Assembly: GCF_037975245.1 (NCBI RefSeq) | Contig: NC_092562.1 | Span: forward strand, 16,610,521 to 16,674,520 | Reading direction: 5' to 3' | DNA: 64,000 bases | From: Apostichopus japonicus | Taxonomy: Eukaryota > Echinodermata > Holothuroidea > Aspidochirotida > Stichopodidae | In this document: one piece after another, positions 1-50,265 of the stretch | Position numbering within the stretch: the first letter of the stretch is position 1 | Layout of the letters: each line of letters starts with the position of its first letter | The notes under the pieces: model-generated | The model's database searches: none | What the model saw: the letters and a program-made list of their open reading frames with translations, nothing else | What the model was told of the DNA's origin: nothing | Made by a program: the position numbers and the translations under genes

Positions 1-2477
1 AAATATAAACTCAAATAAATGAAAATTTATCAAACATGCGATGTCATATTCATATTTATTTATAATTTATATGAAAGGTTCCATAATAGAGGTTGCTGGA
101 ACAATTAATCACAATATAAACTTTGTTCTAGGAGCATGTAACTCTCCTATGTAATTAATATGTAAGCAATATCTACCATATTGAATTGAAACTGTCTGAG
201 TAAATAAAAAATGTGTCAATAGTTAACTGATTATTCAAATTTTCATTTCATTCTCAGTTTACAAAAAAACAAAGTTCATGCATGCTTTCTTTAGCCAGAA
301 ACATGTAGAGCCAGTTTATTGGACCCTGGGCAGAATTTTGTCAATTGGCTCACTCTTTCACTCTTCATTTCTCCATTCTGTAAACATAGTAAGACAAAGA
401 AAGAAAAAAAACACTCCAGTGTCTCCTCCATACTTCCTGGGGCTCCCTAAAGACCCTTTGCATGTAGCCCTGTCTGACCCCCTTCTTCCCTCTAGCAAGG
501 CCTGCCTGTAGAGTAACTTTCAGCTCTTGATAAAATCAAATTAGGGATGTTGACTGTTTGACCTTCTTCGGTTAGAGACTGCCAAGAGTAGTTTGCATAC
601 TACTCTGATAATGCAAGATAACACTATTACCCAGATTACAAATATACAGGCTGCCACACCCTGGCATATACGGAACAAATATAGTTGTGGCTATGCTAAT
701 AGTCGGTCATTCCAATAGTTGGTCATGCCACTGGGCCTACCGCCGCAGATCAAGAATGTGACAGCCCTTGATACTCAAAATACCGAATGTTAAGCAACAA
801 AAGGCATAACCTTACCTACTGAATAATGATGAGGAGGCACTTCCTAATATGGCAAGAAGTAACTATGTATACACTCTATTACAGTGTGTATTGAGGGGGG
901 GGGGGGGCGTTAATCATTAACTCGATTTCTGATCACATGACTGCAGGTTCTTGGTATACAGAATAGACGGTTCTGAAAGTGTTTTATTCTCACTATGGGA
1001 AAAGGTATCACAAATAAATAGTGTGAGCAGATCGTTATGAAATAAATGTAGGGGCCTATATACTTTTGTTCGGCACGTTGATTCAGAAGTGCAATATATA
1101 TCCCCATACGTTTCAAGTTGAGAAGTCGTTTCTCGTGTTCAGTTCTTATATTGACAACAGTTTATTTACTGATCATGATTCACAGTTCAGTTTAAGATAT
1201 GCCCTATTTCCTTAAGAGTTTAAGAAATATTAGTATAGTATATATCATGCCGCCGCCTAGCTTCCTCGGGCCCTATACTTTCTTTCCCAAACAGAACTTC
1301 AATTTTCAGTATCGTGATCGATGGTACCTACCCAGCAAACACAAAAAAAAATGTTTTTAAAACGTTTCGTCTTTTGTTTTGATAACGTTATTTGTGGTGT
1401 AATAAATATGTCACGAAAACGTTTTCAGGCTATTTTTTCAAAACATTTTTTCGTTAAAACATTAATATAACATTAATATCTCATAAAAACGTTATGCCGA
1501 CGTTTTTATAACACCAAATTTAATGTTATAAAAAACATATTTAAGAGGCTCTTTTAAGAATGTTCAAGTTCCTCCCATTCACAGGAAACTATCAATTTCC
1601 GCATGTCTTTGCATTTAGCGTTGTAACTCATGTATTCAATTGGCGGATATATGCATATATCCGTCCTTCCATGGAAGGCTACCCCCCCCCCCCCCTCCCC
1701 GTTTTGAAGTTGTCGCACTCCATAGATTGTACGCTACAAACATACTAACAATTTCCTAATGCACGCTTGCCGGCACCCATCACTTTTCGCTAAGGCTTTT
1801 ACAATGGTCATGATCTATACCAATACGCGGCCACCTCTCAACCGTACAAATCCTCAGTGGGATGGATTGGCCGTTCTGCCTAGTTTAAACTTTTCACTCA
1901 TTTTCTCCTGTTATGATTGTTTGTTTTCTTTCTTTGCATTGGTTGAACCTACTATTAATTTCAATCTTTGGTAACTTTTGAAATTAGAGCGAGTCTCCTT
2001 TCACCTCCCCATTCTCGCCCGCCCTCCACAGTGGCACAACCATTAATTACTTAGTTATTGTCATCACAAAGGAGTCGACGCCAATACCAGCACTTCCAAA
2101 CGATTCCAAACTAAGTTGGTTAGCTACAAATTATGATCAGGGACGCAAACACGTTTCTTCGGGAGAGGGTGATCAAATCAACTTGGAGGGCTCACCGCGA
2201 TCCCCCCCCCCCCACACAAACATATCATAGTGGGAGTATACCATAAAATATGTACTATAGTATTGTGCGTTACAGCGTGCAGGACGGTTGGGAATTTAAG
2301 TTTTCAAATGTTGAAAATGTAGCACCATATGCACAGATCTGAGCTCCGAGCATTCAAGTTTGCCGTAACCACAAATTTCTTTAGACCCCTTTCCTTGAAT
2401 GACATAACAAATATCCTCCCCTATCGCTCAGTAAAAAAAGTGATGGGGGTGGGGGGGTGAGCCTTGGAAATGATTAC
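1..2477. other. Gene-free left flank
   Basis: I see no exon with usable splice sites or recognisable protein on either strand. Open frames here are short and of ordinary AT-rich composition. Homopolymer tracts stand out: about 12 G near 896, 14 C near 1682 and 13 C near 2200. The stretch around 1340-1560 is rich in repeated AAAACGTT / AACATT words, suggesting old repeat sequence. Confidence 0.5.
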
Positions 2478-2938
2478 CAGGCGCGTATCCAGGATTTTCT
2501 AACCCGGGGGGCGCGAATTACTATCTAAGCGGAGCGCCACCATCGGTTGGCGCGCAGCGTACAAGAAATTTTCTGGTTTTGATACCACCCAGATCACCGG
2601 AAATGGCACTTCTCGGGCTTGAAAATGACCAACCAGATGTGCACTTTTGCCTGAGAACCAAGTATTTCCTAATAGTTTTTTTTCATCCATAACCTTTTTG
2701 AAGATTGTCACCAGCCACACATCATGTTCGACCTCATCGCATGTCCTGTGGATCATTGCTTTTGTAGGTGATTCTACGTCGCGGCCCACAATATCCGTCA
2801 GCCCCACTTTTCAAGGTTTTAAGCCCATTATTTGTTCAGAATTTGAAAATTCACGTTTCTCGTGATTAAACTCAATTCAAAACATACCCATAATGTTGCA
2901 CAAAATTTCATCTATGGACAACCAATATAGAAAAACCC

Positions 2939-3596
2939 AAGGGCGGCAGAAGCACTTTTAATCTGGGGGGGGGGGGGGGGCACCGACATCAAAGGGCACT
3001 TTGCAGATATTCGATTGGACTGATGCAGCCTTATATTTAGTACCATTTATAACTCTTATTGTATTTATCTTATTTGCGTATACACATCACTCCATCAACG
3101 CCCCCCCCCCCCGGCCCCCTCAAGGAAAATATGCATGCTAGCACTGCAATATCCAACAATGTGCAAATTAGGAAACATGGAACAAGTTTTCTTTTGAGAC
3201 AAAATGAGGTGAAATTATGCTAGTTGCTAATGTAGGAATCTTCCGAGTTAGAATTTATTTCTTGTTAATATCTTAACAATTTTTTTTCCATTCGAAATAG
3301 CTTTGAGTTTGACCCACAGAAATTCATTAGAAAGTCAGAGGCGTAGCCAGGATTTGCAAAGTTGTATGCACGACTATCTGAGCGGAGCGCCACCATCGGT
3401 TGGCGCGGAGCGTGCAAGAATTTTTTGGGTTTTACAAACCCCTCAGATGGCCGGAAACGGCCCTTCCCGAGTGTTCATTCTGGCCTCTTGCTAACTTGAG
3501 ACACCTAAATTTTTATGTAGAAAAAGGGCACATTTTTAACCTGAGGAAAAGTGAGGGGGGCACGTGCCCCCTGTGCCCCCCGGTTCCGCCGCCCTC
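2939..3596. mobile_element. Small TIR element nested in copy A
   Basis: About 657 bp absent from the equivalent point of copy B (near 25573). The left end reads AGGGCGGCAGAA and the right end on the minus strand reads AGGGCGGCGGAA, a 12-bp inverted repeat with one mismatch. It holds 15-16 bp of G near 2965, 12 C near 3102, and a stretch (3360-3430) sharing the GCGGAGCGCCACCATCGG word with the host element. No protein-coding frame is recognised. Confidence 0.5.
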
Positions 3597-3795
3597 CTTG
3601 AACCCCTAACAGACCGGTCAATATTGCACGAGTAGAGGGACGTGTGATGAAGAATGTGGGTCAGAAATTTTCAAAAATTCAGACACAATTAATTTCTTGG
3701 TGTACAAATATTAAAACCTCTTATAACGGCTATTATAAAACTTGGTTGAAGGAAATGAAAATATAGCAGATATTTCCGAAACCGAACAATACACA

Positions 3796-4072
3796 CATAG
3801 GCGTAGGAGGCGGGGGGGGGGGGGTGGGGACTGCAGCCCCCAATTCGCCATTACTAATGTAAAAGAGAGTTTTAACATAATTGGACCTCGATGATTTTCT
3901 CCAACTACATAAGACATTTCGTTGTTTACATTAGCATCCCGCGGTATACTGAGCAACTTTCACGGACCGTAAGGTACACGATGGCATCTGATGTAATAAC
4001 CGATGCTTGCTTATGTGATATTGACATTAACATGTTGGAATTTTTGGTTATTTTTTCGGGCAAGTCGGACAA
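3796..4072. mobile_element. Deleted remnant of hAT-like MITE inside copy A
   Basis: Starts CATAGGCGTAGGAGGCGGGG, the same end as the MITE at 11068-11659, and continues with sequence matching 25940-26190 of copy B. It ends around a TTTTTTCGGGCAAGTCG stretch without the right terminal repeat. Compared with 25768-26209 the middle and right edge are deleted. Confidence 0.45.
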
Positions 4073-6064
4073 TTTTGAGGCTGTTCATCCTGGAACGCCA
4101 TTTTCATGCTCACTGATATGATGTGATATCTGTCTGCTGTTTGCTTTACAAATTCGAACCGGCGCGTAGCAAGAAATTTGCCAAGGAAAGGGCGAAGCCT
4201 GTATAGGCCATCAGCTGAAGCTCAAAATGTGGCTGTAAAATCAGTTTCGTTCCAGCAACACCGGGTCTAGACTTTTAATGCATTTTTGGGTAGTTTAATG
4301 CATCACAAACATTATATCAAAAGTTCTCCAAAAAATTTCCTGCAGTATTTTTGTAAGAAACCCTTGAAATTGGGTATGTTATGTAGACATTACGTGCTAC
4401 GATGCTATGTATTAGGAACACATGTGCTAACGTTAGATTTGGTACAGTGGTGCATACATACCACTCTTTTCTTATATGTTTAATTACGACTGATATATTT
4501 TTTTTTGTATAATAGTTGGGTCAGGGTTACAAGAATGGTGGAAGAGGATTCTGGTCTAAGGGTCAGTGAGGGTTGTTTTCAGGCATTACAAGTTGTGCCC
4601 CCCCCCCCTCCATTTTTGCCAAAATGGTAAAAAATCACATTTTCAACTTTGAAATATGAAATACAATTTTTGCACATTATAACTTAAGGGTTTTAATTAT
4701 AAAAATGTACCACTTTTAATAAACTCAGATATAATGCTTTGTAATAAATCAAATATTTTTAGATTTTCCCCCTATGTTATGAATACATTTCGTCTGTGCA
4801 TGTATGCGTAAATATACACATATAATGAAAAGTTCCTCTCCATAATTGTTACACTCCCCATCCAAACTGTTTTACAAATGCGACCCCCTCTCCCTCTACT
4901 TTACATGTAGCTAAATCCCTAGTTACAATGAGATGTACCAATGCCCCAAGACCAGTGAGCTATTTCTTTTGTATAAATCAATATATAAGTTGGCACACTA
5001 AGACGTCATGGCATATCGTAGATGTGAAATAAAGTTATAGTCGGTATATATCCGTTACCTTAGTACTCTTTCTACAGTCTTCTGCAAAACTAGGTACTTT
5101 CTCCTTGTTACTGAAACGACATGTTCATAATTCGTATTCCTGCAAAAAGAGTTTCCAAGGGAGTTAACGCATAAAAGAAAAGATCGACAAGGTTTCGAAT
5201 GGTATTTTGAATAATAATAGTTCTATATTCTACAAATAATATGAATAATAAAGGTGAATGGTACAAATAAGTGAATAACGAAGACAGTTAACTTAAGCCC
5301 CAGATATAAAGAAATAATGTATCTATTAAGACTGGGTCGATACACTCAATGGTGTAGTAGAGCTGGGCCTTTGCGATGATTCAAGATACAGGTTCTTCAT
5401 CAAAAGGCGCGGCGCGGAATTAATAAGTGATTAAAAGTTCATCCAAGGACAGTTGTACTAGTCTTAACAGTATCCACTTCAATTCACTGCATGGAAGTCA
5501 GATATGGTATGGAAAAGGGAAAGTCTATTCCGTAGTAGAGGTGAAGACAATTAGATGAAATAAAAGTCACTAAAGACTTGAATATCCTTCAGTCAAAACT
5601 TGAACAGATGCACAGAACATATTAACAATATGAATAAAACAGGTAACGAAATGTTACGGCAAACAATAAAGAACCGTGATATTGGAACAGGGTCAGGGGC
5701 GATGGTTAAAACCTTTGACTGGTTTCAGGACGCGGTATTTGCGTCATCGCCATCAGTAAATGTAGTTGTGAATATGCAAGAGGTAAAGCATGCCCATAAC
5801 ACCCTCCTCCCCCCTTCCCATCCCCTCTCAAAAAAAGTGTGATTTGAAGAAAATGTGGATATTTATCAAAGGTGTCTGGTAGGTAGGGTAATCTATGTAA
5901 AACTACTAATAGCTAAAATGAATATATGAATAAGATCATGTTTTCTGGTTCCTTTAAACTCTGGGGAACAAAATAATGACAACATGACTTTGAAAAAGTT
6001 AACCCTCTTCACAAACTTCAAACTTTAATAAAATTTCAGACTAAGATATCAAGATTTAACACCA

Positions 6065-6463
6065 TCACAGTTCATCCTCCAAATCATCTTCCCCTGCATC
6101 AACAATCTCAACATCTTCTTGGAAGTTGCTGCAATTTCTATATTTACATAGGTCTGTACACGGTAGTTGTGCATTCATTCAGGAACATCTTCCTTTAAGA
6201 CATTTGCCGACTCTACAGCTACTGCTGACACACTGAAGCAAAGCATCTGGGTCAGGTGGCTTCGTCATCCAAGTGATTATTAGGTCATCATTTTCAAGTT
6301 TCCATCCATGTCCCTCTGGTGAGAGTGCATCAATCCTTTGCTGCAATGCCCTACTGTGAATAGCAGCCTGGTTGGTGCAGCGCTTAACATGCTGGATCAG
6401 AGCATCTTTTGTTGGTGGTAAACTCTGCTCTGAGGAGGAGATGAACAGAACACCTTGTACCAT
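6065..6463 (-). pseudogene. C-terminal exon of the same decayed gene, Cys-rich tail
   Basis: The frame carries SLPPTKDALIQHVKRC, then GHGWKLENDDLIITWMTKPP, then a cysteine cluster (CVSSSCRVGKCLKGRCS). It hits an in-frame TGA at about residue 95. Beyond that stop the same frame continues with CTDLCKYRNC and an acidic end (DDLEDEL) to a TGA at 6065-6067. The stop falls where a Cys would extend the CxC pattern. LPPTxDA, GWxL and a C-terminal CxC cluster are what I recall of the same family. The exons that should lie between this and 6701 are missing, so the copy is internally deleted too. Confidence 0.55.
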
Positions 6464-6700
6464 GAAATTGGATATTTTTGAGTCTCACATTTTATGATGG
6501 GGTACCAATATAATTACAATTCAGCTAGAAATATGTTGCAAATTTCTTTAATAATTTCAATGGAAAGATTAACCTGATATTGCATCTCAAAGCGTTTAGA
6601 GAATTTTTTAATTTTCCTTGGGGGAGGACCCCCATATTCCAAAAGTCCTAGATCCACCCCTGAACACTCAATGAACCACACATTGAAGAGAGTACTTTAC

Positions 6701-6857
6701 CTTTCAAGATCTGTATGTCTTCCTTGTCAAGAATTGTATCTAGTTTCTTCAACATAGAGAGTGGTACCTCACTTCAATGGCAACACGGTCTTTTCCTCTA
6801 ATATTCATAAAATCTGGGCTCATCTTTTTTCCGCTCTGCTGCTTGTCGAAGCAATAC
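6701..6857 (-). pseudogene. Second exon of the same decayed gene, with nonsense codons
   Basis: The acceptor is TTTTATTAAG before 6857 and the donor is AAAG|GTAAAG at 6701/6700. In the phase inherited from the previous exon it reads a run ending RGKDRVAIEVRYHSLC. It then meets TGA, TAG and TGA codons within about 20 codons. The text between the stops still looks protein-like (RN, IQFLTRKTYRS), so these are probably point mutations in a once-coding exon rather than a wrong frame. RYHxxC follows the same His/Cys style as the first exon. Confidence 0.5.
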
Positions 6858-7531
6858 CTTAATAAAATGAAATAAAAAAAGCAAATTGTTTTGCATTTTC
6901 TGTTGATCAAAATGTAAGTTTCAACAAATAAGAACTAAGACAATTTTATTTATATACCATGTGATCTGCTCATCTTCTATGGACAAACAAAGACACATTC
7001 AAATTTTGCAAACCAGTGTCATGCAAAAAAGAATTAAAACAGGCTTTTTTTTGACAGTACAGTACATTATCTCTTAATGTTATGGTTTAAATTATACAAT
7101 GGTAGATTATATCTGTTACTAATAATAAAGGAGACAGATACTTGTTCATTTTGGTAAAGCTAGACAGGCTGACCATAAGACCTTGCAAACCTAACCTTAT
7201 TGCACCTTTGTTACACTTATTTTTCTAACTAATATAATATCTCTATCATTCAAATAAAGGGCCACAGTAAGAAAACTATGAAGCCTGTATTTAACACTTA
7301 GGCTAGTGCCCCAGATGGAGAATTTGAAACAAATTTCCGTTCCTACCACCTTATAACAAAACAAATCAGATGACCATGCCACTAATTATATTATGTTCAG
7401 GTCCAACACTGTGCCCTTTGACTTGGATTCTATCCCTCAAGAGCTACTGATCTTGCATTATGCAACTTCTCTGAACACTTCAACTATGCCACAGAAGTAC
7501 AAGTAGAGTCGTGTAGTATGCTTAGGCTTAC

Positions 7532-8018
7532 CTCCATCGAAAGTCTCTGCATGCTGCAGCTTGTCCTGCACCCGTTTGCAACGCCGAGTAATGTATTGTT
7601 TCTTTTCCCACATATAATAAATTGAACCGGCAATACACCAGAGCTTCTGCTTGGTTTCCTCGATCTTTTCCGTCAATTCTTCGTTTAAAATCATAAGTTG
7701 TCTCCTCTGGTACTGTCCGTTTTCTTGCAGCAATGTGCTTGCTATCAATGAACCGCCTGTAACACTTATCATGGAACCCCATCATACTATGCTGTTGAAC
7801 ACACGCTTGATCGTAGTAGGCCATGGAGTAATCAGTAGTACGGCGATATCACTGTCTCCGCCGCTGAGATTAAGCCGATCTTTAGCGCAGGAAGTAACTT
7901 TAGTCCATCGTTTATTCGTCAGTGCCTTGACTGCTTCAAATTTTACAGATTCAATGTGGACTGAGCACTGTAGATTTCCGTGTGTCGGAGACTGACTAGC
8001 GCCCGTGGGAGCCGCCAT
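7532..8018 (-). pseudogene. N-terminal exon of transposon-borne zinc-finger-like gene, frameshifted
   Basis: The minus-strand ATG at 8018 sits in a good context (AAACATGGCGGCT). The first frame runs to about 7825 and includes SVKFEAVKALTNKRWTKV. Translation then resumes in another frame with a His/Cys cluster, GFHDKCYRRFID. The GFHxKCYRRF pattern is the hallmark I recall for the N-terminus of a large, unnamed, multicopy protein family in cnidarian and echinoderm genomes. The exon ends in an intact donor (AG|GTAAGC at 7532/7531). The next exon at 6857 joins in phase through the split AG|G codon. One frameshift near 7825 breaks it, so this copy cannot make the full protein. Confidence 0.55.
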
Positions 8019-8889
8019 GTTTGTTGTTTTCTACAAAGATTGCACACAGAACTCATGGCTCATTGGACAATTCATATCACATGGTACAGATATCTCACTG
8101 GCGCACAACTTTTGAACGTAAAACGGCAGGTTTCTTAACATACGCAATAAAAATATAGTTCGATCTTTCGAGCGGAATTGCAAAAAAACTGCAGGAAAGT
8201 ACATGGAGAACTTTTGGATCATTAATCTTAGTTAATTTATGTATTCAATGCTGTAGAGAAATTTTAGACCCGCAGTTGCTGGAACGAAACAAGCGAATTT
8301 CGACCTTCAGCTGATGGCCTAGTAAGCAAATTATCTAAGCGTAGCTCCTCCATTAGTTGGCGCGAAGCGTATAAGAAAATTTTGGCTGAAAATGCCTCCC
8401 AGATCGCTGGAAATGGCACTACCCAGGACCATTTGTTGGCGCGAAGCGTACAAGCAAATTTTGGCCGAAAATGCCTCCCAGATCGCTGGAAATGACACTT
8501 CCCAGGCCTTGTAAGTTGCATCTAAGCACTTTCTATTTTGAAATTACTAGAGATATCATAAAAAAAATATGCTGATGGGGGGGGGGGCAGTCGCCCCCTT
8601 CCCGAAATTTGTCATGTTCCCCGACGACACGTACGGTCGAGTTCGAGACCAGCCACAGTTGGTTTCATAGCACAATTCTACAATTGATTAAGGCGTATAT
8701 ACACACACACGCTTTATGATAGACCATATATAGAATATATAGATCATGAGTGAGAGAAGAAAAATGGAAACGTCAACATTGAGTTGTCGGTGTAAGGGGT
8801 AGGGTGAGGCACACGCCTCTTCCGAAGTCCTTGATCCGTCACTGGCTACCCTGTGTATATAATAGGGATCAGCGCTGTAATAATGTCAC

Positions 8890-9047
8890 TGTTCCTCTTT
8901 CTCTTCCCGGTTTCTTGGCGTTTTTCTTTAACTCCCTCCTTTTCTCTCTTTCTTCTTTTTCTTTTCCCTTCCTTCCTCTCCTCCTCCTCTTTTTCCCCCT
9001 CTTTTTTCCTTTTTTCTTCTCTTTTTTTTCTCTCCTCTTTTTCTTAC
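8890..9047 (+). repeat. Polypyrimidine tract of copy A
   Basis: About 155 bp of almost pure C/T (TTCTTTTTCTTTTCCCTTCC type), matched by 26810-26965 in copy B. It sits just inside the right terminal repeat, so it belongs to the element. Open frames read from it (FLFPF or EEKRK types) are composition artefacts. Long homopurine/homopyrimidine runs can form triplex DNA. Confidence 0.7.
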
Positions 9048-9091
9048 CCGGGGGGCGCGCGCCCCCAACGCCCCCCCTGGATACGCACCTG

Positions 9092-10398
9092 TTATAACGA
9101 GCCCGGCGATAGAAAGGTACTGGGGTTATCTTGATGCCGTATTTTATGCTTCTTCAGGAGACGTCTCGAACGGAAGATAGAAGAAAACAATGAGTTCTCA
9201 GAAAAACAAATTTGACAAGATCGGATTTGATTAATGATTCGGTATAATTTCTTCTCTGTCGATTCTCTTACAAGTAAAACAAAATTACAATGATTTGACT
9301 CCGTAAATTACGCAATTCGAAGGGGTGATGAAATGGTGACGAAGTGAAGAACTTGCAGGGACATGCCGCATTTTATACATTACTCTACCGAAAATCCCTC
9401 TGCGCATAATCAGAAGGCAGCCAATAACCTGCTCATCCTACATTAGCTAACAATATAAAAATCATTGGATAAATGACTGATCTGCCCTGATTGGTTGGGA
9501 GTTTGGAAGTCCACCCTTTTCTATGGAAACTTCCATACCACGTGAGAAGAACCTTCTCGAATGTGCCACGCACAGACACATCGAATCTATTTTGGGAAAA
9601 GGCCCTGTGAGGCTGTGACATGATTCAATAAGATAGTTAAAACTTCACGTGGGAAAACTGAATCCTCGACCTATATAAATAAATATGTAAGGGGCCTGTA
9701 CGGTGTCTCGATGGAGTTTTCGGGAACATCAAAGAGATGGTATCACTATTTCATAACAATAGGTGTAAACAAATATGACAAAGTATCACAAGACGCAACA
9801 CACGTACTGGCAAGCAACGTATAATCATTTCCATTTACAAGTCAGAAGCATTGAACCATGGAGCTATGTTTATAGCGCCATATGATTGAACCTATTCACA
9901 CACACTTCCCTAGCAGTATCAGTGAGCTAGTGTTATTCCTATGTTAAATCGCAAAAATCAGAATCGAAGACCACCAGCACCAAGCGTACAGTAATAATCA
10001 CTTGAGACGCAGCAGTTTTCAGCAGCTGTTTTTTTTTTGCAGTGTTGCAGGCTACTAGTACTAGTAGTACCCTACTATTCTTGGCTTCGTGTAAATTTGT
10101 TGGGGTATAACGTACGTAAACTTCAATTAATATGCCTTTCTAACTTAATCCTATGCTGCTACTTGCTAGGCAGTGTTGCAGAGGTGAACTAGCTACAGTT
10201 ACAGTTCTGTTATAGGGAGTTGAGCTAAATTTGGGTTTTGTCTATAACTTGACAATAATTAAAGGCTTGGCCTCTAAGCCATGGCCTATATTATTATTAT
10301 TATTATTATTAGCCAATGTTGACCTTGCATGAGCCTTGGTTTATGTCATACATTAGGCCTATACACTACAGTATATAGCCAAATATTAATTCATACGA
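9092..10398. other. Gene-free stretch between elements
   Basis: No exon, RNA gene or element boundary that I can support. An ATT trinucleotide run (about 7 repeats) lies near 10291. The P450 promoter or a non-coding first exon could lie here or up to 12060, but nothing specific marks it. Confidence 0.4.
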
Positions 10399-12250: not shown

Positions 12251-15200
12251 GTAAGGGCAGATAAATTGGTTGATATACTGTACGTGGCATGAATACATTA
12301 ATGCTTCAAGAAGGGCAGTATTAAACAATTTCTGACAGAAGCTGTTCAAACAAATTTCCTTTGAGTTTTCTGCACAACAAAATGGCACCTATGTTTATTT
12401 GTGATTCTGTTCCAGGCCTATTTTACATGTTCCTTAAAATTAAAGGCATTGAAAACTCTCCCCAAACCGTGTGCAGCCATATGAATAAGTTAACTTCTGT
12501 TGCTTGCAAGTGACGTATTGTTCGTGTCGCTACAAAATGCAGACAGTAATGAAACGTGATCCATTGTTATCTTTGAGATGTCCATCGCTGTATCGTTTAT
12601 ACACTTTGCTATGGGTATTGACCGCAGCTGTATGTACTGACTGTACACTAGTGTCTAATTACCGATGGTAGTAGCAAGCTGTGTGTGTATTTTCCGGGAT
12701 CGATGGTGGTGTCTAACACTTCTGATATTACACCTCATTCAAAACGAGGTCAGATTACCGGCATTAGACGTTTCTTTTTGCGCGAGTCTTCACACCCTTT
12801 AACTTTCTGTAGTTGTCTAACATCTCGGTTGGTTCGGTTTTCTCACAGATCTTGCACGTAATGAGAAGCCTGCCTCTGTTGCCTTCATGGAGTATGCTAA
12901 GGAGTATGGAGATATATTTTCCATAAGAGTAGGTCAGAGGTGGGTTGTAGTCCTGAATGGTGCAGCTACAATTAAGGAAGCTCTCCTGAAGAAGGGTGTG
13001 GAGTTTGCTAACAGACCAACCAGTTATACTGGTAAGTCTATTTTTTTAGTTCAAAAAGTATAATCACTTTTTGCTTTTGACAACATTTATAACCTAGGCT
13101 AGCGTTGATGGACCTCTTACTTTGGGATATTTGGATAAGTCATAGTCATTACTAGCTAGAGACCTGAGGTTGTTCTTGGTCAGCAGAAGAAAAGGAATGT
13201 AGAAATCCTGAAATGCAAACACAATCTTTCAAGTTAGCTTGTCTTGTACTGTATTTTCAGTAGATTCATAGTATCTAAAAATGGTAATTGGTCACTTTTG
13301 GTTAACAGAGATCAAATTGTGAAAACATTTTGCTATCTCAAATGAGACTTCTTGGACTGCAGGTACAAAAACAAATTCAAATAAAGATAAAGCATTCATA
13401 CTTTTACGGTAACTTCCTTTCCTGTTTAGGTGACTTATTCTCAGAAGGTGGCCGGGATATTATCTTTGGCCAATATTCTCCATCTTGGAAGCTACACAGA
13501 AAACTTGCCTTTTCTGCTTTCAGGTAAATTTCTTCAAAACCTATTTTGTAATTGCAAGAGTCTCTCAACAGACATAATAAGTAATTATCTATTAACAAAG
13601 CAACCTTTTCATATGAGAATCTTACCTTTCTGCAAAGTCGTCAAACTTATCTGTCAAGCTCTCAGAGCTGGCTGCATGCTTTTTTTTTTTTATAAATGCC
13701 TGAATTAGGGTGTTACTAAAACGAATGACAATAACAATATATAATTACTAGGTAGTTTCGAATACATATATTTATTCACAGGTGGGAAATCCAGAATAAG
13801 GGGAAATTTCCCTAGCCCTGTTCCTTATCCTTAAATGAATGAAATCAAGTACAACTTCTTACAGAATGTCTTCTTGATGCATGAAAAAAAGAAACTGCTA
13901 AATCCAACAAATGGAAACAGTTAAAGGCATGCGCACACAATCATCACGAGATGAACAGTGGTAACACATGGCCGCTAACAGACCATCCGTGGGGTGGTGT
14001 ATAAGTCATTACCAAGAATTGTATGAACTGATAAGGATCCTGGAATGTTCAGTAAGAGACATTAATGTTAGCAATGTCACACTATGAATATTGCTTTAGG
14101 CTCATAGTAAAGAAAAGTCAAATTGATGTTACTTACTCTTTTATGTTCACTTTCAATGACCTTTCCAATGTTTCAGGAATTTGGCTACTGGTGACAACAA
14201 GAGATTTGAGAAGCTGGTTTATTCCATCGTTCCTGGCCTCACAGCGAACTTGGACTCCAAACTGTCGGAACCGTTTGACCCACGACCAATCCTTGCATCG
14301 TCCATCTATAATATTCTGACAAGTTTGTGCTTTGGCAAACAGTGAGTTGAGAATGTACAATATTGGATGTAATGTGATACTATATAGTGTCATCTCTCAG
14401 TTTTGTATCACACCACAATAATTCTTTATATCAGTGAGACAGATGTTGCAGGAGTGAATGGAGGATTTTAAAGAGGAGGGTATGAGATCCTGATTTCATT
14501 GAAGCTGACTCCAATGTGGAAGGTGTGTGGGTCTTATGTGGGAGGTTCGTGGGTCTGAGGAACTGAAAACATAACATGTTAAAGGAAATGAAGACTCGCC
14601 CCAAACCGCGTGCGGCCATCTGAAATAGTTAACTTTCCGTTGCTTGCAAGTGACGTTTTGTTCGTGTCGCTACAAAATGCAGACAGTAATGAAACTTGAT
14701 ACCTTGTTATCTTTAGCTGGACCTGAGATGTCCATCGCTGTATTGTTTGTACACTGTGCTGTGGATATTGACCACAGCTGTATGTACTGACTATACACTA
14801 GTGTCACTTATTACCGATGGTAGTAGCAAGCTGCATGTGTGTGTGTATTTTCTGCGATCGATGGTGTTGCCTAACACTTCTGTTACACCTCATTCGGAAC
14901 TAGGTCAGATTACCGGCATTAGACATTTCTTTTTGCGCGAGTCTTCACACCCTTTAGGTGATACATTCTGAGGTATATTTAGAATATAAAAATTAGGAAT
15001 ATAATATGGGCTACACACACGGTTGTGCTTATAACTACTTTTAACTTTTTGTATGGGGTTGAAAAGGTGTGGGGGTGTACACTCCACCCCCCTGGATCAG
15101 CACCTATGTTGGTAATACAGAATGATTTAAAAAAAAATAGTGTTGTAGCAAATGCTATATACATGCATAGTGCATAGTTGTAAAGAATGTCTAGCTGTAC

Positions 15201-18200
15201 ACAGGATAGGTTAGTTCAGCATTATGATATAAAACAACATATATTAAATGGTAAATCAGTTGTGTTATTTATGTAATATTTCTAAAGTACATTATATTGT
15301 TTCAACATTAACATATATTCCCCCTCCCCCACTTTCCCATTGACACACGTAAGAAGGTTTATTTATGCTGTTATAGAGTGGTAATTTTTCTAAAGTACAT
15401 TATATTGTTTCAACATTAACATATATTCCCCCTCCCCCACTTTCCCATTGACACACGTAAGAAGGTTTATTTATGCTGTTATAGAGTGGTAATTCTTCTA
15501 AAGTACATTATATTGTTTCAACATTAACATATATTCCCCCTCCCCCATTTTCCCATTGACACACATAAGAAGGGTGTTTAATGCTTCCATATTACCACAT
15601 ATTAATTTATGCTGTTTTAGAGTGGTACCACTTCATACATGCTAGAAACAAGAAGAGGATTAAGAGTTTCCTAAAATATTGCGCAAATGTATTTTGCTTA
15701 GACTGTGATATTCTTGTAAGTAAGGTTAATGTTGCAGCCCGAAATTATTCTGTTAGACTTGCAAAAATAAACTTGCCTGCTAAGATCATCCTCTACATTG
15801 TAAACTGACCTCTCTGTGCAATAACACAAAATACAATTTCAGAAATCCTCAACTCACTCCAAGTTTTAGAATCACACTTTTTAGAAATTCCTTCATTTAC
15901 AGAGCGGCAATTTTAACCCAAAATGGAGTTTTACAACCCTTATTTTAATCATCTGAAGTATTTTAATATTCAATATTGATATCTTTAGTATACTTTAATA
16001 TTTTCAAATTTGACCTCTAACTAATCACTGTAATTATATGTGAAATCAAAATGTTCAGAGAGGATTAACTTCATACTGAGCAAATCATATATTTCAATGA
16101 ATCACAACACCAACTGGCTTTCTGGATGATGTTCCGTGTCTTAATTGTTTCTGGTTTCTAGGTATGAATTTGATAGTCCAGAGCTAACCAGGATAATGTA
16201 TCTTAGTAAAGAAGCGAATGAAATTGGTGGAAGTGGTCTTCTTGCTGACTACATACCAATCTTCAAATATGTTCCTACACCTGGTCAGAGAAAACTGGAA
16301 GCTTTGTTTAAAGAGTTCTTGGGCTTCATCAGCCAAGAATTGGAGGAACACCATGAGAAGTATGATGGGGGTAGGTAGAGCTCTATGATGTATATGGCTG
16401 CAAATAGGAGGGGCTGGTAGTGGGTGCATATCTCGCTGGCAACACAAGGGGTGGGGTGGGGTGTGTTCGGATGGGGGGGGGGGAAGGCATAAAGGAAGTG
16501 TCAGGAGAATCACAGCATGACAGATTGGACGAGCCACTCATTACTACACTGACCTCAATGCCGTCTCATAGATCATTGGATCCGTGACCTATTTTTAATT
16601 GGCACTCTCCATTTGTGCCAACTAATATTAATTAATTTGCACAATCCTGTTGGTTCTCTGATTTACTTGGGCGAACCAAACTAATATAATAAATTTAATT
16701 AATTTGCACCATCCCATTAATTCTCTCATTTACACAGGCGAACCAAACTAATATTAATTAATTTGCATCATCCCGTTAATTCTCTGATTTACACAGGCGA
16801 ACCCAAGGATTTCATAGAGATGCTCTTTCAGTCTCGACAAGAAATCAAAGACGAAGGCAAAGAAGATATGAACTTGATAACAGAAACCCATATCAGACAG
16901 ACAGTATTAGATGTATTCAGTGGTAAGGAGTCATTCCCTAAACCAAAGTTAACTGTTTCCAATCGAAGGTAACACATTTGTAAAGGTTGTAGGGTTCTGC
17001 ATGATGGTGGTAAAATATTCATGCTAATGACACTTCAACAATGAGCTATTTACTTGTAAAACTGGATATTGCCCCCAACATGACATATTCAGCTTTCTCA
17101 GGCATATATGTAGCTGTGTTGCAATGTAAAATAACTGTCTTCCAAGCAAATATTATGACAATTATTATTTAATACTTGTTATGCTTAACTGCACATTTTA
17201 GCATTAAAAAGGCATTTGGAATAGTAGCTTTGCAAATTCCATGTACAGTCCAAACTCAACTTAAGAATTGGCAAATTTAATAATCTAATGGTAATGTTAG
17301 TAATTAATAGTTAGTATTTGCTGTTGAGGTTTATCTGTTCATTATCTGTGCACCTTTTCAGCTGGAACGGATACGTCCATTACTATGCATTTTTTTGTGG
17401 GGGGGGGGGGGGCGGGAGATATAATTATGCACATGTAATCTTTAAGTAACATCAGAAGATAAAAGGAATAACATAAACAATATTAAAATCAATCTTTCAT
17501 TTGGCGTTCATCATTTTGATGTTGCCAGACGCTTTTTAATGTACACTAAATATTCTTATGCAGTGAAGTAGCCAAGAGTTTCATTTAGAATTATCAGACA
17601 GATTTTATATTCTGTGTCTTGTAAATGTTATCAACGACTTCATTTCCTCAAAATTTTAGCTGGTACGGATACGTCCATTTTTACCATGCATTGGTGTGTT
17701 GGACTGATGGTTCAATATCCAGAGGTGCAAGCCAAAGTAGCCGAAGAAGTGGATCGTGTCGTGGGAAGAGATAGGCTGCCCTCACTGAATGACCGTGAGG
17801 AGCTAGTGTACACCACAGCAACCCTGTACGAGGTTATGCGGTACAGTACCATAACTCCTTTAGCCATGCCACATGCTACGTTGACGGACGTAGAGTTTGG
17901 TAAGCACTTAACCTAGCTATGCTATATATGACACTGTAGCTGAATAGTGGTTAGAAATTAGATTAAAGAAAGATCTACCAACCAACTGCAGTTTGTACTT
18001 TCACTAATGAAGGAAGACAAAAGTGACGTGTATGCTCAAAGGGTGTGAAGACTCGCGCAAAAAGAAACGTCTAATGCCGGTAATTTGACCTAGGTTCGAA
18101 TGAGGTGTAACAGAAGTGTTTAACACCACCATCAAGCCTAGAAAATACACACACAGCTTGCTACCGTCGGTCATTAGACACTATAGTGTGCAGTCAGTAC

Positions 18201-20476
18201 ATACAGCTGCGGTCAATACCCACAGCACACGAACGAAACGTCACTTGAAAGCAACAGAAAGTTAACTTTTTTAGATGGCCGCACGCGGTTTGGGGCGAGT
18301 CTTCAATGCCTTTAAATAAGCCTTAGACTAGTTTATCAAATTAAAGGCATATATGTTTTTAGATTATTGACATGCTTGATAAGCCTTTTTAATTCACATT
18401 CCTGCTTCACAGGTGTATAAATCTTTCTTTTTATAATAATTTCCAGGTGGTTATACCATCCCTAAAGATACTTGGGTTTTAGTGAACATCTACTCCATGC
18501 ACTTTGAGGAAAAACTCTGGGATGAACCTAACAAATTCACACCAGGTAAGGTTAGAATTAAACTTCCTTTAATAGTGAGTATGGTGACATTAGATTAACA
18601 GATGGTGTCCCCAGGCATGCGACCTTTCCCTTTAATGGGTATGTCGCCACCAGCTAGGCACTCTGTCTTTCCCTTTAATTGTTCAGTATGGTGTCACAGA
18701 TTCTGAGCAAGTTACATTTTTTGATTCCTTGCCGAAGGCAGATGGAATCTATGCAATGGTGATGGCATGTGTGTGTGTCTGTGCGTGTATGTGACACTTG
18801 CTCGTAAACACTCTTAACTTCAGAAGGATGACTGGGGTACTGTACATTTCACATTTGGTATGTAGGTTCCCCTTAGGTAGAACTGGTTTGGGAATGTTTT
18901 TGGTCTCGGTCAAAGGTTATTCGTGGTCAGCACGGCTCACAGTCTGAAAACATTGTTCACACAATATCTCAGGAAGTAGAAGTTGCAGGAAGTTCAAACG
19001 TGGTGTGTTGCTTGCTGTTGGTGAGTAGATGATCTGTAGTGTTAATCATGAATGGCAAAGGTCAGCAGAGGGAAAAAGTGTGAAAATCTTGTAAACATGA
19101 TATCTCAAGGAGGGTCGTCTATGCAGTTCTCTTATTTGTCAAGTTGATTTCATGTAATTAATTTAGCAAACTCTATTGATTGTGGTGGAGGTCAAAGGTC
19201 ATTTGAGTATATGAAAAGTGCTATATCTCCAGAACCAGAACATGAAAGGAGCTCACATGTGGTATGATAGCCTTGTGTGTTGTATAGTTTGTACACAATT
19301 TGATGTAGGTCAGAGTTCATTTAAGGTCACGATGTGTCAAAACTTGAACACTATGTAAATACGATATTTCCAGATAGAAAATGCAGTAGCTGGTATGTAT
19401 GGCTTTGGCTTCTCTGTAATTAGTACAAGAACCCTATTGTTTTTGGTGATGGGTACAGGTCATTTGGGTTCAGCAGAGGTTACACTCTGGAAATTTTAAA
19501 CATGGCATCATAAGATGTCATATTGGCATATGACTTTCCTAAAATGAGTACAAAAGTGCAGTAATTTGTTGTGAAGGTGAAAGGTCATTTGAGGTCAGCA
19601 AGGGGGAAAGTGTATACCTTGGAGGCAATGTTGGTGGATAATTTTGTTTTCAAGTTGAGACTCCTTATTTGCTTCAAGTCAATGGTTAATCCTAGCAGAA
19701 TTCAACCACTCAATCAGTTGCTCTATATATATTAGGTGATTCCTTTACAGTATAAACTTACAAGGCAAAGAATCACTAAGCCTGCTAGTTCATGCTAAAG
19801 AAAATTGTGACATCACTGATTAAAGTTACTTTTCGTAAAGTCTCGATCAAGGGTATACATTTACATAGGAGCTGCACAGTCTAAGTTGCACAAGGGAAGT
19901 AAAAAAAAAATTGTGCTTGGTCATTGAGAGTGTTAACCCACCTTTGAAAAGAAAAAAATTATCATTGTATAAATGTCAAAAATGTGTAAATGAATTTGAC
20001 ACCATTTCTGCAGCATCAGTTTACCAACTGGATAAGTCTACCCAAGTCAGGAGAAGACTTTGCATATTTTCAACCTTATGTTACTGTTACTTGTCATTTA
20101 GCCTCTGAAGAAGATCCTGCTAGGATCGAAACGTCAGGCCAACTTACTTTTACTCACTTATGCACTGTTGTATTGCAAAATATTGATGTGTTGTACTGTT
20201 GTTTCTCTCTTTGCAATGACAGAACATTTCCTGGATGAGAGCGGAAAGGTTCGTCTCCACCCAGAAGGTTTCATGCCTTTCTCTACCGGACGCCGTGTCT
20301 GCATCGGTGAATCGGTTGCCAAGGCAGAGCTCTTCCTCATCTTTGCGTGGTTGTGCCAGCATTACAAGTTCAGCAAACCAACCGGGCGGGAAGAGAAAGA
20401 TTTTGCAGAAGGAAATCCCCAGGCTATAGTGAATATGATGAAAGACATTGAGGTTGTTGTAGAAAAACGCTTTTAA
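12094..20476 (+). CDS. Cytochrome P450, clan 2 (CYP17/CYP1-like), 9 exons
   Basis: A haem-thiolate monooxygenase, probably anchored in the endoplasmic reticulum and fed electrons by NADPH-P450 reductase. Coding exons: 12094-12250, 12849-13031, 13430-13523, 14177-14341, 16162-16370, 16797-16922, 17660-17899, 18447-18545, 20223-20476. All have GT-AG borders and matching phases, giving 1527 nt and 508 aa, the usual length. Landmarks: hydrophobic anchor about 14-34, PPGPKGWPLVGN at about 40-51, C-helix W133/R137, I-helix AGTDTS 312-317, K-helix ExxR 369-372, PEHF 424-427, haem loop FSTGRRVCIG 444-453 with Cys451 as iron ligand. The haem-region wording (CIGE, then ELFLI.AWL) recalls CYP17 and CYP1 families; the substrate cannot be read from sequence. 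Introns carry three MITEs, minisatellites, a relic exon and a hammerhead-like repeat. Confidence 0.93.
12440..12802 (+). mobile_element. TTAA-bounded MITE, copy 1 (P450 intron 1)
   Basis: 363 bp, from TTAAAGGCATTGAAAACTC to GCGAGTCTTCACACCCTTTAA. The ends are imperfect inverted repeats and both outermost TTAA words are present, as after piggyBac-type insertion. There is no coding frame. Copies 2 and 3 are in introns 4 and 7 of the same gene. Confidence 0.75.
12849..13031 (+). CDS. P450 exon 2
   Basis: The acceptor is TTCTCACAG, the donor is ACTG|GTAAGT, phase 1 to 1. It encodes helix A and beta-1 (EYAKEYGDIFSIRVGQRWVV) up to FANRPTSYTG, the usual entry to the B-C region. Confidence 0.92.
13430..13523 (+). 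CDS. P450 exon 3: C-helix
   Basis: The acceptor is CCTGTTTAG, the donor is TTTCAG|GTAAAT, phase 1 to 2. It holds GQYSPSWKLHRKLA with the WxxxR pair (W133, R137) that contacts a haem propionate. Confidence 0.92.
14177..14341 (+). CDS. P450 exon 4
   Basis: The acceptor is ATGTTTCAG, the donor is AAACA|GTGAGT, phase 2 to 2. It encodes the D-E helices ending ILTSLCFGKQ, the conserved NVxCxxxFG-like segment of clan 2. Confidence 0.9.
14579..14957 (+). mobile_element. TTAA-bounded MITE, copy 2 (P450 intron 4)
   Basis: 379 bp and colinear with copy 1, including GCTTGCAAGTGACGT and TACCGATGGTAGTAGCAAGC. The left end is TTAAAGGAAATGAAGACTCG and the right end is GAGTCTTCACACCCTTTAG, so the right TTAA has changed by one base. 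Confidence 0.75.
15281..15626 (+). repeat. 108-bp tandem repeat, about 3 copies (P450 intron 4)
   Basis: TCTAAAGTACATTATATTG starts at 15281, 15389 and 15497. Copies 1 and 2 are nearly identical through GAGTGGTAAT. The third differs after about 75 bp, with a short insertion before it ends near 15626. It contains CCCCCTCCCCC in each unit. Confidence 0.85.
16162..16370 (+). CDS. P450 exon 5
   Basis: The acceptor is GGTTTCTAG, the donor is GGGG|GTAGGT, phase 2 to 1. It encodes the F-G region, including LLADYIPIFKYVP, typical of the DxxPWLxxxP segment. Confidence 0.9.
16621..16806 (+). repeat. Tandem repeat duplicating the exon 6 splice acceptor
   Basis: Three units of 59-67 bp start ACTAATAT at 16621, 16680 and 16747, and each ends GCGAACC(C)AA. 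The third unit contains the acceptor used for exon 6 (AG at 16795-16796) plus its first bases. The second unit keeps an identical TTTACACAG|GCGAACC site 59 bases upstream. In the first unit the AG is lost (TTTACTTGGGCG). Confidence 0.8.
16797..16922 (+). CDS. P450 exon 6
   Basis: The acceptor is TTTACACAG, the donor is AGTG|GTAAGG, phase 1 to 1. It encodes KDFIEMLFQSRQEIKDEGKE, leading into the I-helix. Its acceptor lies in the third unit of a tandem repeat (16621-16806) that also copies the first bases of the exon. Confidence 0.9.
17362..17390 (+). pseudogene. Relic of a duplicated P450 exon 7
   Basis: After CACCTTTTCAG, the 29 bases at 17362-17390 read AGTDTSITMH in the exon 7 phase, against AGTDTSIFTMH in the real exon 298 bp downstream. 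Coding similarity then dissolves into a poly(G) tract (about 17399-17412). It keeps an acceptor and the I-helix motif but no body or donor. Confidence 0.7.
17660..17899 (+). CDS. P450 exon 7: I- and K-helix
   Basis: The acceptor is AAATTTTAG, the donor is TTTG|GTAAGC, phase 1 to 1. It opens directly with the oxygen-activation motif AGTDTS and holds ExxR (EVMR, 369-372). A truncated copy of its first 29 bases lies at 17362-17390. Confidence 0.95.
18036..18315 (-). mobile_element. TTAA-bounded MITE, copy 3 (P450 intron 7), inverted and shortened
   Basis: Reverse orientation to copies 1 and 2: it begins CAAAGGGTGTGAAGACTCGC and ends GGCGAGTCTTCAATGCCTTTAA. About 280 bp because of internal deletions. 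The TTAA is intact only at the right end. Confidence 0.7.
18447..18545 (+). CDS. P450 exon 8
   Basis: The acceptor is AATTTCCAG, the donor is CCAG|GTAAGG, phase 1 to 1. It encodes GYTIPKDTWVLVNIYSMHF through KFTP, the beta-2 strand and start of the PERF-type motif. Confidence 0.92.
18900..19640 (+). repeat. Diverged tandem units with nuclear-receptor-like half sites (P450 intron 8)
   Basis: Units of roughly 110-150 bp recur at about 18905, 19055, 19189, 19308, 19455 and 19575. Each has (A)GGTCAAAGGTCATTTGxGGTCA followed by text like CTTGTAAACATGATATCTCAAG. A perfect AGGTCAAAGGTCA lies at 19189-19201. A further related unit is outside the gene at 21547-21640. Confidence 0.6.
20080..20158 (+). 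repeat. Dispersed repeat with hammerhead-ribozyme-like core, copy 1
   Basis: In P450 intron 8. It holds CTGAAGA (20105-20111), a 5-bp perfect stem-loop GATCC/GGATC (20113-20127) and GAAA (20128-20131), the order of a hammerhead core up to stem II. GCCT (20101-20104) and AGGC (20136-20139) flank the core and are complementary. Nearly identical sequence occurs at 48954-49030. Similar CTGAnGA...GAAACGTC tails are known from Penelope-like retroelements; I infer, but cannot show, such an origin. Confidence 0.6.
20223..20476 (+). CDS. P450 exon 9: haem-binding loop and C-terminus
   Basis: The acceptor is TGCAATGACAG, entered in phase 1. It completes PEHF, carries FSTGRRVCIG with the haem-ligand Cys451, and ends at TAA (20474-20476). 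The start of the exon is 65 bases after a hammerhead-like repeat. Confidence 0.95.
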
Positions 20477-23845: not shown

Positions 23846-24272
23846 TAGTACACACAAACCTTGAGTACATGCGCACTTTGGTACCCTATAGCTGTGTACC
23901 CCACAAAACAATACAGTAAACTACAGTACACCACAGGACACTACACCACAGTACACAGTAGCTTTGATCAATTGCGCGATACAGGAAGGTACAAAATACA
24001 TATAAATTGTAGCAGGAATGTTGAGATTAGGCGAAAGCTGTTATGACTTCAAAATTAAAGTAAACAACCTCACCCAAACTATCCTTAAAATTTAATAAGA
24101 TATCAAAACTTAATTTTTTTTTTACTTCACTGGATAAAACCATAACAATCTCATTTTATTAGTAGTTAAATGATGGTTTGTGTGTGTGTGCGTGTGTTAT
24201 TGTTTTGCTTTTGATTGATGTTTTGTTTGTTCTTGTGTGCATTTTTTTCTATAGGTTCAAAGCATGCACTAT
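23846..24272. other. Degenerate repeat edge, no gene
   Basis: 23846-23960 is rich in ACAGTAC/ACACCACAG words, which look like decayed simple repeats. A TG run lies near 24180. No coding exon is visible. Confidence 0.4.
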
Positions 24273-25113: not shown

Positions 25114-27014
25114 CACCGGCGTATCCAGGATTTTCTTACCCGGGGGTGCGAATTACTATCTAAGCGGAGCGCCACCATAAGTTGGTGCGCAGCGTACAAG
25201 AACATTTCTGGTGTTTATACCCCCCAGATCACCGGAAATGACACTTCTCGGACTTGAAAATGACAAACCAGATGTGCACTTTTGCCTGAGAACCAAGTAT
25301 TTCCCAATAGTTTTTTTTCCCATCCATAACCTTTTTGAAGATTGTCACCAGTCACACATCATGTTCGACCTCATCGCATGTCCTGTGGATCATTGCATTT
25401 GTAGGTGATTCTACGTAACGGCCCACCGTGAATACCCGACAGCCCCACTTTTCAAGGTTTTCAGCCCATTATTTGTTCAGAATTTGAAAATTCCCATTTC
25501 TCGTGAATAAACTCACTTCAAAACATACCCATAATGTTGCAAAAAATGTCATCTATGGACAACCAATATAGAAAACCTCCTTCAACCCCTAATAGACCGG
25601 TCAAAATTACACGAGTAGAGGGAAGTATGATGAGGAAATTTTCGAAAATTCAGACACAGTTAATTTATTGGTTCACAAATATTAAAACCTCCTATAACGG
25701 CTATTATAAAACTTGGTTGAAGGAAATAAAAAAAAATAGCAGATATTTCCGAAACCAAGCAATACACACGTAGGAGGCGGGGGGGAGGGGCTGCAGCCCC
25801 TCCAACCAAATATTTTGTTCCTGAAAATTAGGGCAATATACTGTGAATTTTTCGGGCACCTACTGAAAGAAAAAAAAATTGCAATGATGTAGCTAAAGGA
25901 AATGAATATTTTATAAAATATCTCCTTGATAATTAAAATAAAGTTCTAAGCTTGGCCGACTAATTCGCCATTACTAATGTAAAAGAGAATTTGACATAAT
26001 TGGACCTCCATGCTTTTTCTCCATCACATAAGACATTTCGACTGCGCAACTTCCACGGACCGTTCGGTACACCATGGCATGCGATGTAATAACTGATGCT
26101 TGCTTATATGATATTGACATGTTGAACGCGCGCGAAGCGCGCGAAAAATTTGGTTATATTTTTCGGGCAAGTCGTTACAGCCCCCCAAATCAAATTTGGC
26201 TCCTACGCCTTTGACTACACACATCGACAGTTTTGAGGCTGTTCAGGAGCCGCCATTTTCATGCTGCACTGAAATGATGTGATATCTGCTGTTTGCTATA
26301 CAAATTCGAACAGGCGCGTAGCGAAGAATTTGCCAAGGGAGGGGCGAAGCCTGTAGGCAAACTATCTAAGCGTAGCGCAGCGCCACCATAAGTTGGCGCG
26401 AAGCGTACAAGAAAATTTTGGCTGAAAATGCCTTCCAGATCGCTGGAAATGGCACTACCCAGGCCTTGTAAGTTGCATCTAAGCATTTTCTATTTTGAAA
26501 TTACTAGCGATATCATAAAAAAATATGCCCGGGGGGGGCGATCTCCCCCTTCCCGAAATGCGTCATGTTCCCCGACGACATAGCACAATTGTTTAAGGCG
26601 TCCATACACATACAGGCGTTATGATAGACCATAATATAGTATACATATAGATACATTAGTGAGAGAGGAAAAATGGAAACGTCAAAAATGGAGTTGTTGG
26701 TGTATGGGGTAGGCCGGGTGAGGCGCACGCCCCTTCCGAAATCCTCGATCCGTCACTGGATACCCGGCCATGTGTATATAATAGGGATCAGCGCTGTAAT
26801 GATGTCACTGTTCCTCTTTCTCTTCCCGGTGTCTTGGCGTTTTTCTTTTACTCCCTCCTTTTTCTCTCTTTCTTCTTTTTCTTTTCCCTTCCTTCCTCTC
26901 CTCTTCCTCTTTTCCCCCCTCTTTTTCGCTTTTTTCTTCTCTTTTTTTCTCTCCTCTTTTCCTTACCCGGGGGTCGCGCGCCCCCAACGCCCCCCCCCCC
27001 TGGATACGCGCCTG
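25114..27014. mobile_element. hAT-like TIR element, copy B (1901 bp, carries the empty site)
   Basis: Ends are CACCGGCGTATCCAGG on the left and, on the minus strand, CAGGCGCGTATCCAGG. ATACG flanks both sides (25109-25113, 27015-27019), a possible 5-bp direct repeat; an 8-bp match as expected for hAT is absent. It is colinear with copy A (2478-9091) minus that copy's two insertions, so it shows both pre-insertion states. It contains a nested MITE (25768-26209), an imperfect poly-pyrimidine tract (26810-26965) and no transposase. Confidence 0.75.
25768..26209. mobile_element. hAT-like MITE nested in copy B
   Basis: CGTAGGAGGCGGGGG at the left and GGCTCCTACGCCTTTG at the right match the ends of the 11068-11659 element. 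ACTACACA on the right resembles AATACACA on the left of the same insertion (best seen in copy A near 3788), suggesting an 8-bp target duplication. The right part has a GCGCGCGAAGCGCGCG dyad. Confidence 0.55.
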
Positions 27015-27318
27015 ATACGGTTTACTGTCGCTTTCAAATTCTTGGAAGCGCCGGACTGTTTCGAAATGACGTAATACCTTAAATCCAAAATCGACAATTC
27101 ATTCTCACCATGTGCGCCGTATAGCAGTTTATGGTGTGGCCATACATAATAAACCAATAACGTTGCTATGCTCCGATCCAGTACGTACAAGTTCGACTGG
27201 ACGATATATCACTAGTAGTATACTACGTTCGATCGCATTACACACTCACAGTCATACATTTCCCTGTCACTACTTTCTCTCGTTGCAACTCAACTGAGCT
27301 GAAGATCACTTATACAAA

Positions 27319-42043: not shown

Positions 42044-50265
<8,222 letters not shown>

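Follow-up and report, generated by a model that had tools for sequence, protein, structure and literature searches.

Within a 64,000-nucleotide stretch of contig NC_092562.1 of the holothurian Apostichopus japonicus (hereafter the window), a host repeat is interrupted by a 4118-bp insertion at positions 4204-8321, which is bounded by terminal inverted repeats (TIRs) and carries parts of a gene for a protein rich in Cys and His. Such proteins are presumably abundant, and unnamed, in marine invertebrates such as cnidarians and echinoderms, and the locus raises the question that the initial annotation had put: whether this gene is the transposase of an undescribed or poorly described group of DNA transposons, or a chance passenger. 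Our analysis indicates that the insertion is very probably a copy of an AcademX-like DNA transposon of the cut-and-paste type that has undergone an internal deletion and is non-autonomous.

The insertion and its unoccupied site

The two ends of the element are identical at 17 of 17 positions, and the inverted similarity continues inward over about 150 bp (4204-4356 versus 8178-8321, 71% identity, E 4.6e-13), which bears out the initial description of perfect ends with further inward similarity. Outside these two places the window holds no further match to the 17-bp end at up to three mismatches; under the same setting, shuffled sequences gave a mean of 0.16 matches and reached two matches in 3 of 100 shuffles. 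The element lies in copy A of a host repeat that is present twice, at window positions 2483-9094 and 25119-27017, each copy with rows of inner repeats. The left flank (3842-4203) aligns with 25962-26355 at 68% identity and the right flank (8317-8427) with 26349-26463 at 89%, and in copy B, which is a paralogous copy of the repeat and not an allele, both alignments meet at one GTA. The size and coordinates first assigned to the insertion were right, and its flanking GTA duplication and empty-site control were confirmed.

Copies in the genome

We searched 671.6 Mb in 35 contigs and found 232 exact copies of the 17-bp end (112 forward and 120 reverse), against none for the reversed pattern used as a control. 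Pairing was carried out on the first 100 ends listed, of which 78 fell into 39 convergent pairs and 22 were unpaired; the 38 copies whose genes were read come from these pairs. Thirty-four pairs measure 3.8-4.2 kb, and the others 1.4, 4.59, 4.59, 7.7 and 11.6 kb. An identical 3-bp duplication flanks 38 of the 39 pairs, the window copy included, with a fourth matching base in 0 of 38 and a match between control triplets three bases farther out likewise in 0 of 38. The duplicated triplets are of 18 kinds, and 22 of the 38 consist of A and T only; two copies with flanks in common (L045 and L046) were counted as one event. Mean pairwise identity among 34 copies is 98.3% (range 97.4-99.9%). Both the genome search for paired inverted ends and the duplication test, suggested with the initial annotation, bore out a TIR transposon with 3-bp duplications. 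In viral contigs, the 17-bp TIR matched four loci, all of them one unrelated stretch with no further similarity to the TIR.

The 7.7-kb and 11.6-kb copies were considered as full-length elements and rejected, as they are the short form with nested insertions. One copy (L013) has its C-terminal exon interrupted by a nested insertion of ~3.5 kb, at element positions ~1931-5492, with an 11-bp flanking repeat, CTGATCCAGCA. The 11.6-kb pair (L014/L015) encloses a nested long terminal repeat (LTR) retroelement, which we take to be of BEL/Pao type, and is the sole pair of the 39 to lack the 3-bp duplication (flanks CCA/TTT). The 1.4-kb TIR element (L016) lacks most of the gene and looks like an ordinary deletion derivative.

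Full-length relatives between terminal inverted repeats

Searching the genome with the C-terminal remnant of the gene gave at least 150 matches (150 of 325 candidates scored), and full-length relatives of the gene were indeed found inside such TIRs. The closest among those seen (L052/L058, on contig C16) is an element of 8,354 bp with both 17-bp TIRs exact and a TAT/TAT duplication. Its two end regions match the window element at 83-89% identity, and between them lies a core of about 5.1 kb that has no counterpart in the window copy and encodes a large protein, in an open reading frame (ORF) of 1164 codons that stops at a TGA close to the C-terminus.

Two further families are built in the same way with different TIRs, and two copies were read in each. 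The copies of family A (L054 and L055) are 99.99% identical over 8,392 bp, lie in different flanks with duplications ACA and GTA (6-8 bases of the right flank were read), and hold an uninterrupted ORF of 1572 codons; those of family B (L056 and L057) are 99.84% identical over 8,995 bp, with duplications TAG and ATG and an uninterrupted ORF of 1551 codons. Given this near-identity at different sites, both families seem to have moved very recently. Their TIRs, which begin with TAGAC in family A and with TAGTCAGTGGGCCGA in family B, are of a TAG...CTA type and differ from those of the window element. The 15-bp TIR of family B occurs at 15 ends genome-wide (control 0) and forms six convergent pairs, with duplications read in two; five of these pairs bracket one of the listed matches to the gene core, and the sixth (3.7 kb) brackets none of them.

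A fourth surrounding gave a different picture. Locus L053 has an ORF of 1082 codons (3760-7005, plus strand) and a second, 99% identical copy at G000:C17:25218410-25221644, and no clear TIR pair was found in the 9.9 kb read around it (25 of 44 inverted pairs viewed). Either its TIRs lie outside this region or have decayed, or the gene is derived from a transposon. A fifth relative, L059, was read over its ORF only.

As full-length relatives lie inside TIRs (L052, families A and B), the gene family very probably encodes the transposase rather than being a passenger, and this part of the initial proposal stands. The contrary explanation, a host gene fragment caught by chance in an unrelated TIR element, could appeal to the small TIR element without most of the gene, to L053 and to the occurrence of the gene family with other TIRs as well. 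The evidence on the passenger question is in this sense mixed and does not amount to a refutation, as TIR elements enclose the gene in three of the four surroundings examined (L052, L054/L055 and L056/L057). With a full-length gene between the same 17-bp TIRs, and the same layout in families A and B, we consider such a chance capture very improbable.

A dead gene in the 4.1-kb form

The initial annotation had described a spliced gene with His/Cys-rich ends. Only remnants of the ends are present, and the middle is missing (Table 1): the minus-strand frames, interrupted by frame changes and stops, hold two Cys/His-rich stretches, the first of them N-terminal, and a Cys-rich tail at the C-terminus. 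Lesions of this kind occur in nearly all copies read. By blastn the central core is present in 0 of 38 copies. A stop within the Cys tail is common to 35 of the 38, the tail being intact in two (L017 and L018, both 4.59 kb) and partly missing in L016. In 36 copies the two N-terminal motifs are out of frame with each other; one copy (L024) has them in a common frame and bears another lesion, and in L038 their position could not be read. In L052 both motifs fall within one open frame, and the counterpart of the N-terminal exon stretch is open over 181 codons. The C-terminal frame varies neutrally, with 33 non-synonymous and 9 synonymous variants in 34 copies (pN/pS 1.00). From the absent core, the common stop, the broken N-terminal frame and this ratio, it follows that the gene is dead in the 4.1-kb form; moreover, as the lesions are shared, the gene seems to have been useless already when the 4.1-kb element spread.

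In deleted P elements, a truncated protein can act as a regulator of transposition, and the 4.1-kb form has retained precisely the N- and C-terminal parts that putatively bind DNA; among the at least 150 matches, many have a C-terminal frame open for 101 codons. A two-ended protein kept as a repressor or DNA-binding accessory is nevertheless disfavored by the same broken N-terminal frames, shared tail stop and neutral ratio, and we regard it as very improbable.

Table 1. Features of the element and its unoccupied site (window coordinates; L052 is the nearest core-bearing relative among those seen).
Feature	Position	Strand	Remarks
TIR transposon, very likely non-autonomous	4204..8321	- (gene remnant on minus strand)	4118 bp
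Left TIR, 17 bp, TAGGCCATCAGCTGAAG	4204..4220	+	exact; weaker similarity onward to 4356
Right TIR, 17 bp	8305..8321	-	perfect; weaker similarity from 8178
Target-site duplication GTA, left	4201..4203		flank read directly
Target-site duplication GTA, right	8322..8324		flank read directly
Single GTA, unoccupied site in copy B of host repeat	26353..26355		matching flank context
N-terminal exon remnant, Cys/His-rich, starting MAAPTGAS..., frame broken	7531..8018	-	end inferred from GTAAGC donor-like site
Remnant with second Cys/His motif	6700..6860	-	in-frame stops and frame change
Place of internal deletion	6461..6627		~165 bp here versus ~5.1-kb core in L052 (element 2258-2424 versus L052 3178-8266)
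C-terminal exon remnant, to TGA within Cys-rich (CXC-type) tail	6179..6484	-	rest of tail just beyond, ~6065-6178
About 700 bp without L052 counterpart	5104..5808		comparison with L052

The encoded protein

Five proteins (L052, L053, L054, L056 and L059) align along the core and are 27-40% identical to that of L056, whose numbering is used here. In the first half, acidic residues are found at 635, 688, 829, 843 and 879 in all five, at 429 and 432 in all four that reach there, and at 883 in four of five, the fifth having an E one alignment column off. This acidic region is a candidate DDE/D domain, of the type that the initial annotation had suggested looking for by profile search.

The second half contains, in order, D1120, D1164, E1267/D1269, D1292/D1294, D1350 and a G.GK motif. 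The acidic residues are invariant in the five proteins and largely conserved in a set of ten sequences, of which two are partial, and a GCD...G.GK motif is present. We take this order to correspond to D34, D86, E158/E160, D179/D181 and D233 of FEN1 and to its G-I-G motif, the correspondence of D1120 and D1164 being assumed. Homology of the second half with XPG/FEN nucleases is likely, though the profile match is weak. The likeness to FEN1, GEN1 and XPG nucleases extends to the order of seven acidic residues and the GCD...G.GK motif; the present region differs in lying inside a transposon protein and in having no significant database match. A profile search of the PDB gave GEN1 as its sole match, at the last motif (E 0.79), and PDB searches with the L052 ORF and with profiles A2, A4 and A6 gave no meaningful match.

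At the C-terminus, L053 has the best match to a CXC domain, a Tesmin/TSO1-like domain above the Pfam cut-off (25.3 bits), with a match to LIN54 in the PDB (E 0.0006). The domain falls below the cut-off in L054, L056 and L017 and is not listed in L059; the L052 tail was not scanned whole. In viral contigs, the C-terminal ORF gave ten candidate stretches, none of them a relative, and motif patterns for the nuclease-like core gave 0 matches both there and in the genome contigs, one pattern used in both searches being too narrow.

Classification and comparison with known systems

The references for the Academ superfamily and its lineage AcademX are reportedly those of Kapitonov and Jurka in 2010 and of Kojima in 2020, and the X in AcademX presumably stands for XPG. 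According to one paper, AcademX elements generate 3- or 4-bp duplications and encode a nuclease, AcademH elements generate 9- or 10-bp duplications and encode a helicase, and Zator also has a 3-bp duplication (PMC10045372). Other papers list Academ and sort non-autonomous elements according to the length of the duplication and the sequence of the termini (PMC4455052), mention a RecQ helicase in Academ (PMC3627910), tie AcademH to helicases in fungi (PMC10799480) and report 100 Academ elements curated from bivalves with a mean length of 5,565 bp (PMC10294476).

The elements described here share with AcademX the 3-bp duplications (38 of 39 window-family pairs, and all five of L052 and L054-L057) and the TIRs (in the window family, L052 and families A and B; not found for L053), and their long protein, with its putative transposase-like and nuclease-like regions, would also agree. 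They differ from it in the absence of the catalytic core from the window copy, and the full-length elements are also longer, at 8.4-9.0 kb, than the curated bivalve Academ elements. With considerable confidence we file the window family as AcademX-like, Academ having been compared by description only, and membership in AcademX itself is likely. AcademH, which shares the superfamily name, was rejected because of the 3-bp duplications and because helicases gave no match in the ORFs scanned.

Target sites of PIF/Harbinger elements are 3-bp and of TWA type, and CACTA/EnSpm elements end in CACTA or CACTG; the former were rejected on the 18 different triplets among 38, and the latter on the ends TAGGCC, TAGTCA and TAGAC. 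No Pfam transposase family, as would be sought for a Zator-type transposase, matched the ORFs in a general Pfam scan in which the presence of a Zator model was unchecked.

Several results weigh against the AcademX-like reading. No copy was found that has the core and is ~98% identical to the 4.1-kb element; L052, at 83-89%, is the best, and a genome search with its ORF, in which 40 of 507 candidates were scored, listed no second core of its subfamily, every other listed match being at 50% identity or less. The true donor of the 4.1-kb form was thus not among the copies found. L053, as noted, has no clear TIR pair in the region read. In the acidic region DUF6589 matches three of the five proteins, with a best E of 0.0011, below the Pfam cut-off. 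For the nuclease-like region, a profile comparison with FEN1 (hhalign) gave E 0.0039 and a probability of only 8.6%, and a deeper alignment E 0.0066 and 5.8%; the stretch aligned spans E1267 to G.GK, without D1120 and D1164, and the DDE region compared with the FEN1 alignment as a control gave E 0.58. A profile of ten sequences of the nuclease-like region had no match in the PDB up to E 10, and no ORF that was scanned matched the Pfam XPG family. What speaks for the DDE and XPG readings is a set of conserved residues together with weak profile matches.

A further alternative is an undescribed superfamily that merely resembles AcademX, sharing the 3-bp duplication while its transposase is unrelated and has a nuclease domain of its own. 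It would agree with the lack of a confident Pfam family for the core, with an Academ likeness drawn from descriptions and not from compared transposase sequences, and with the C-terminal CXC domain, which is not mentioned for Academ in the parts of the literature consulted; the CXC tail and the XPG reading are themselves set beside Academ by description only. Reported AcademX elements nonetheless combine a nuclease with 3- or 4-bp duplications (PMC10045372), and the elements here show 3 bp. The order of the acidic motifs is presumably also that of FEN/XPG nucleases. Overall, we consider an undescribed superfamily unlikely. Since AcademX, which encodes a nuclease and makes 3- or 4-bp duplications, fits, the group is probably not undescribed, and in this respect the initial proposal is not upheld. 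Our literature searches found nothing joining Academ, XPG and transposon, nor anything on DUF6589, and we make no claim that the family is unpublished.

A possible mechanism

Internally deleted non-autonomous elements include Ds, deleted P elements and long derivatives resembling miniature inverted-repeat transposable elements. The 4.1-kb form is like them in having kept its ends, lost its core and been amplified, presumably in trans, and differs in still carrying the two end portions of the transposase gene, damaged alike in most copies. The window copy is very probably a deletion derivative that moved in trans.

The TIRs, the 3-bp duplications, the many copies, the loss of the 5.1-kb core, the shared lesions and the TIR-bound full-length relatives are all observed. 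Beside them we propose that the transposase of a full-length relative would act in trans on the 4.1-kb form, which would already have held a dead gene at the time of its spread. The transposase would recognize the TAGGCC... ends, probably contacting the DNA through the CXC domain at its C-terminus and the Cys/His stretches at its N-terminus. A DDE/D-type catalytic domain may then cut and join the ends with a 3-bp stagger, in a cut-and-paste manner, and the XPG/FEN-like domain may cleave or trim flap-like intermediates at these termini.

Other features of the window

A Pfam scan of five window pieces gave nothing above the cut-off, and an Rfam scan of the window at gathering thresholds gave 0 matches. 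A 55-bp unit forms a tandem array at 22417-23981, with at least 24 copies listed, many of them 97-100% alike, and a unit of about 279 bp is present in three tandem copies at 60657-61489 (83-100% alike). Inverted arms of 118 and 89 bp, 90-92% alike and about 3.1-3.6 kb apart, lie at 14579-18315 and are perhaps another mobile element. Of the closed open frames listed for the window, the longest (333 codons) is at 41978-42979 and presumably resembles a protein of aminopeptidase O type.

Significance

The window element is best seen as a good example of an already known kind of transposon. A wider view, which we put forward tentatively and hold to be possible but less likely than its contrary, is that a lineage of very large DNA transposons, recently active here, unites in one protein a DDE-type transposase, a FEN/XPG-type flap nuclease of its own and a Tesmin/LIN54-type DNA-binding CXC tail. 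If true, transposition would bring its own enzyme for processing DNA intermediates, and the Academ plan would include, in the CXC tail, a component not reported before. An abundant family of Cys/His-rich proteins, presumably unnamed so far, is linked here to its transposon within one genome, by ends, duplications, deletion derivatives and relatives with long ORFs. Families A and B, seemingly active until recently, would allow a laboratory test of the role that a nuclease-like domain plays in a cut-and-paste transposase.

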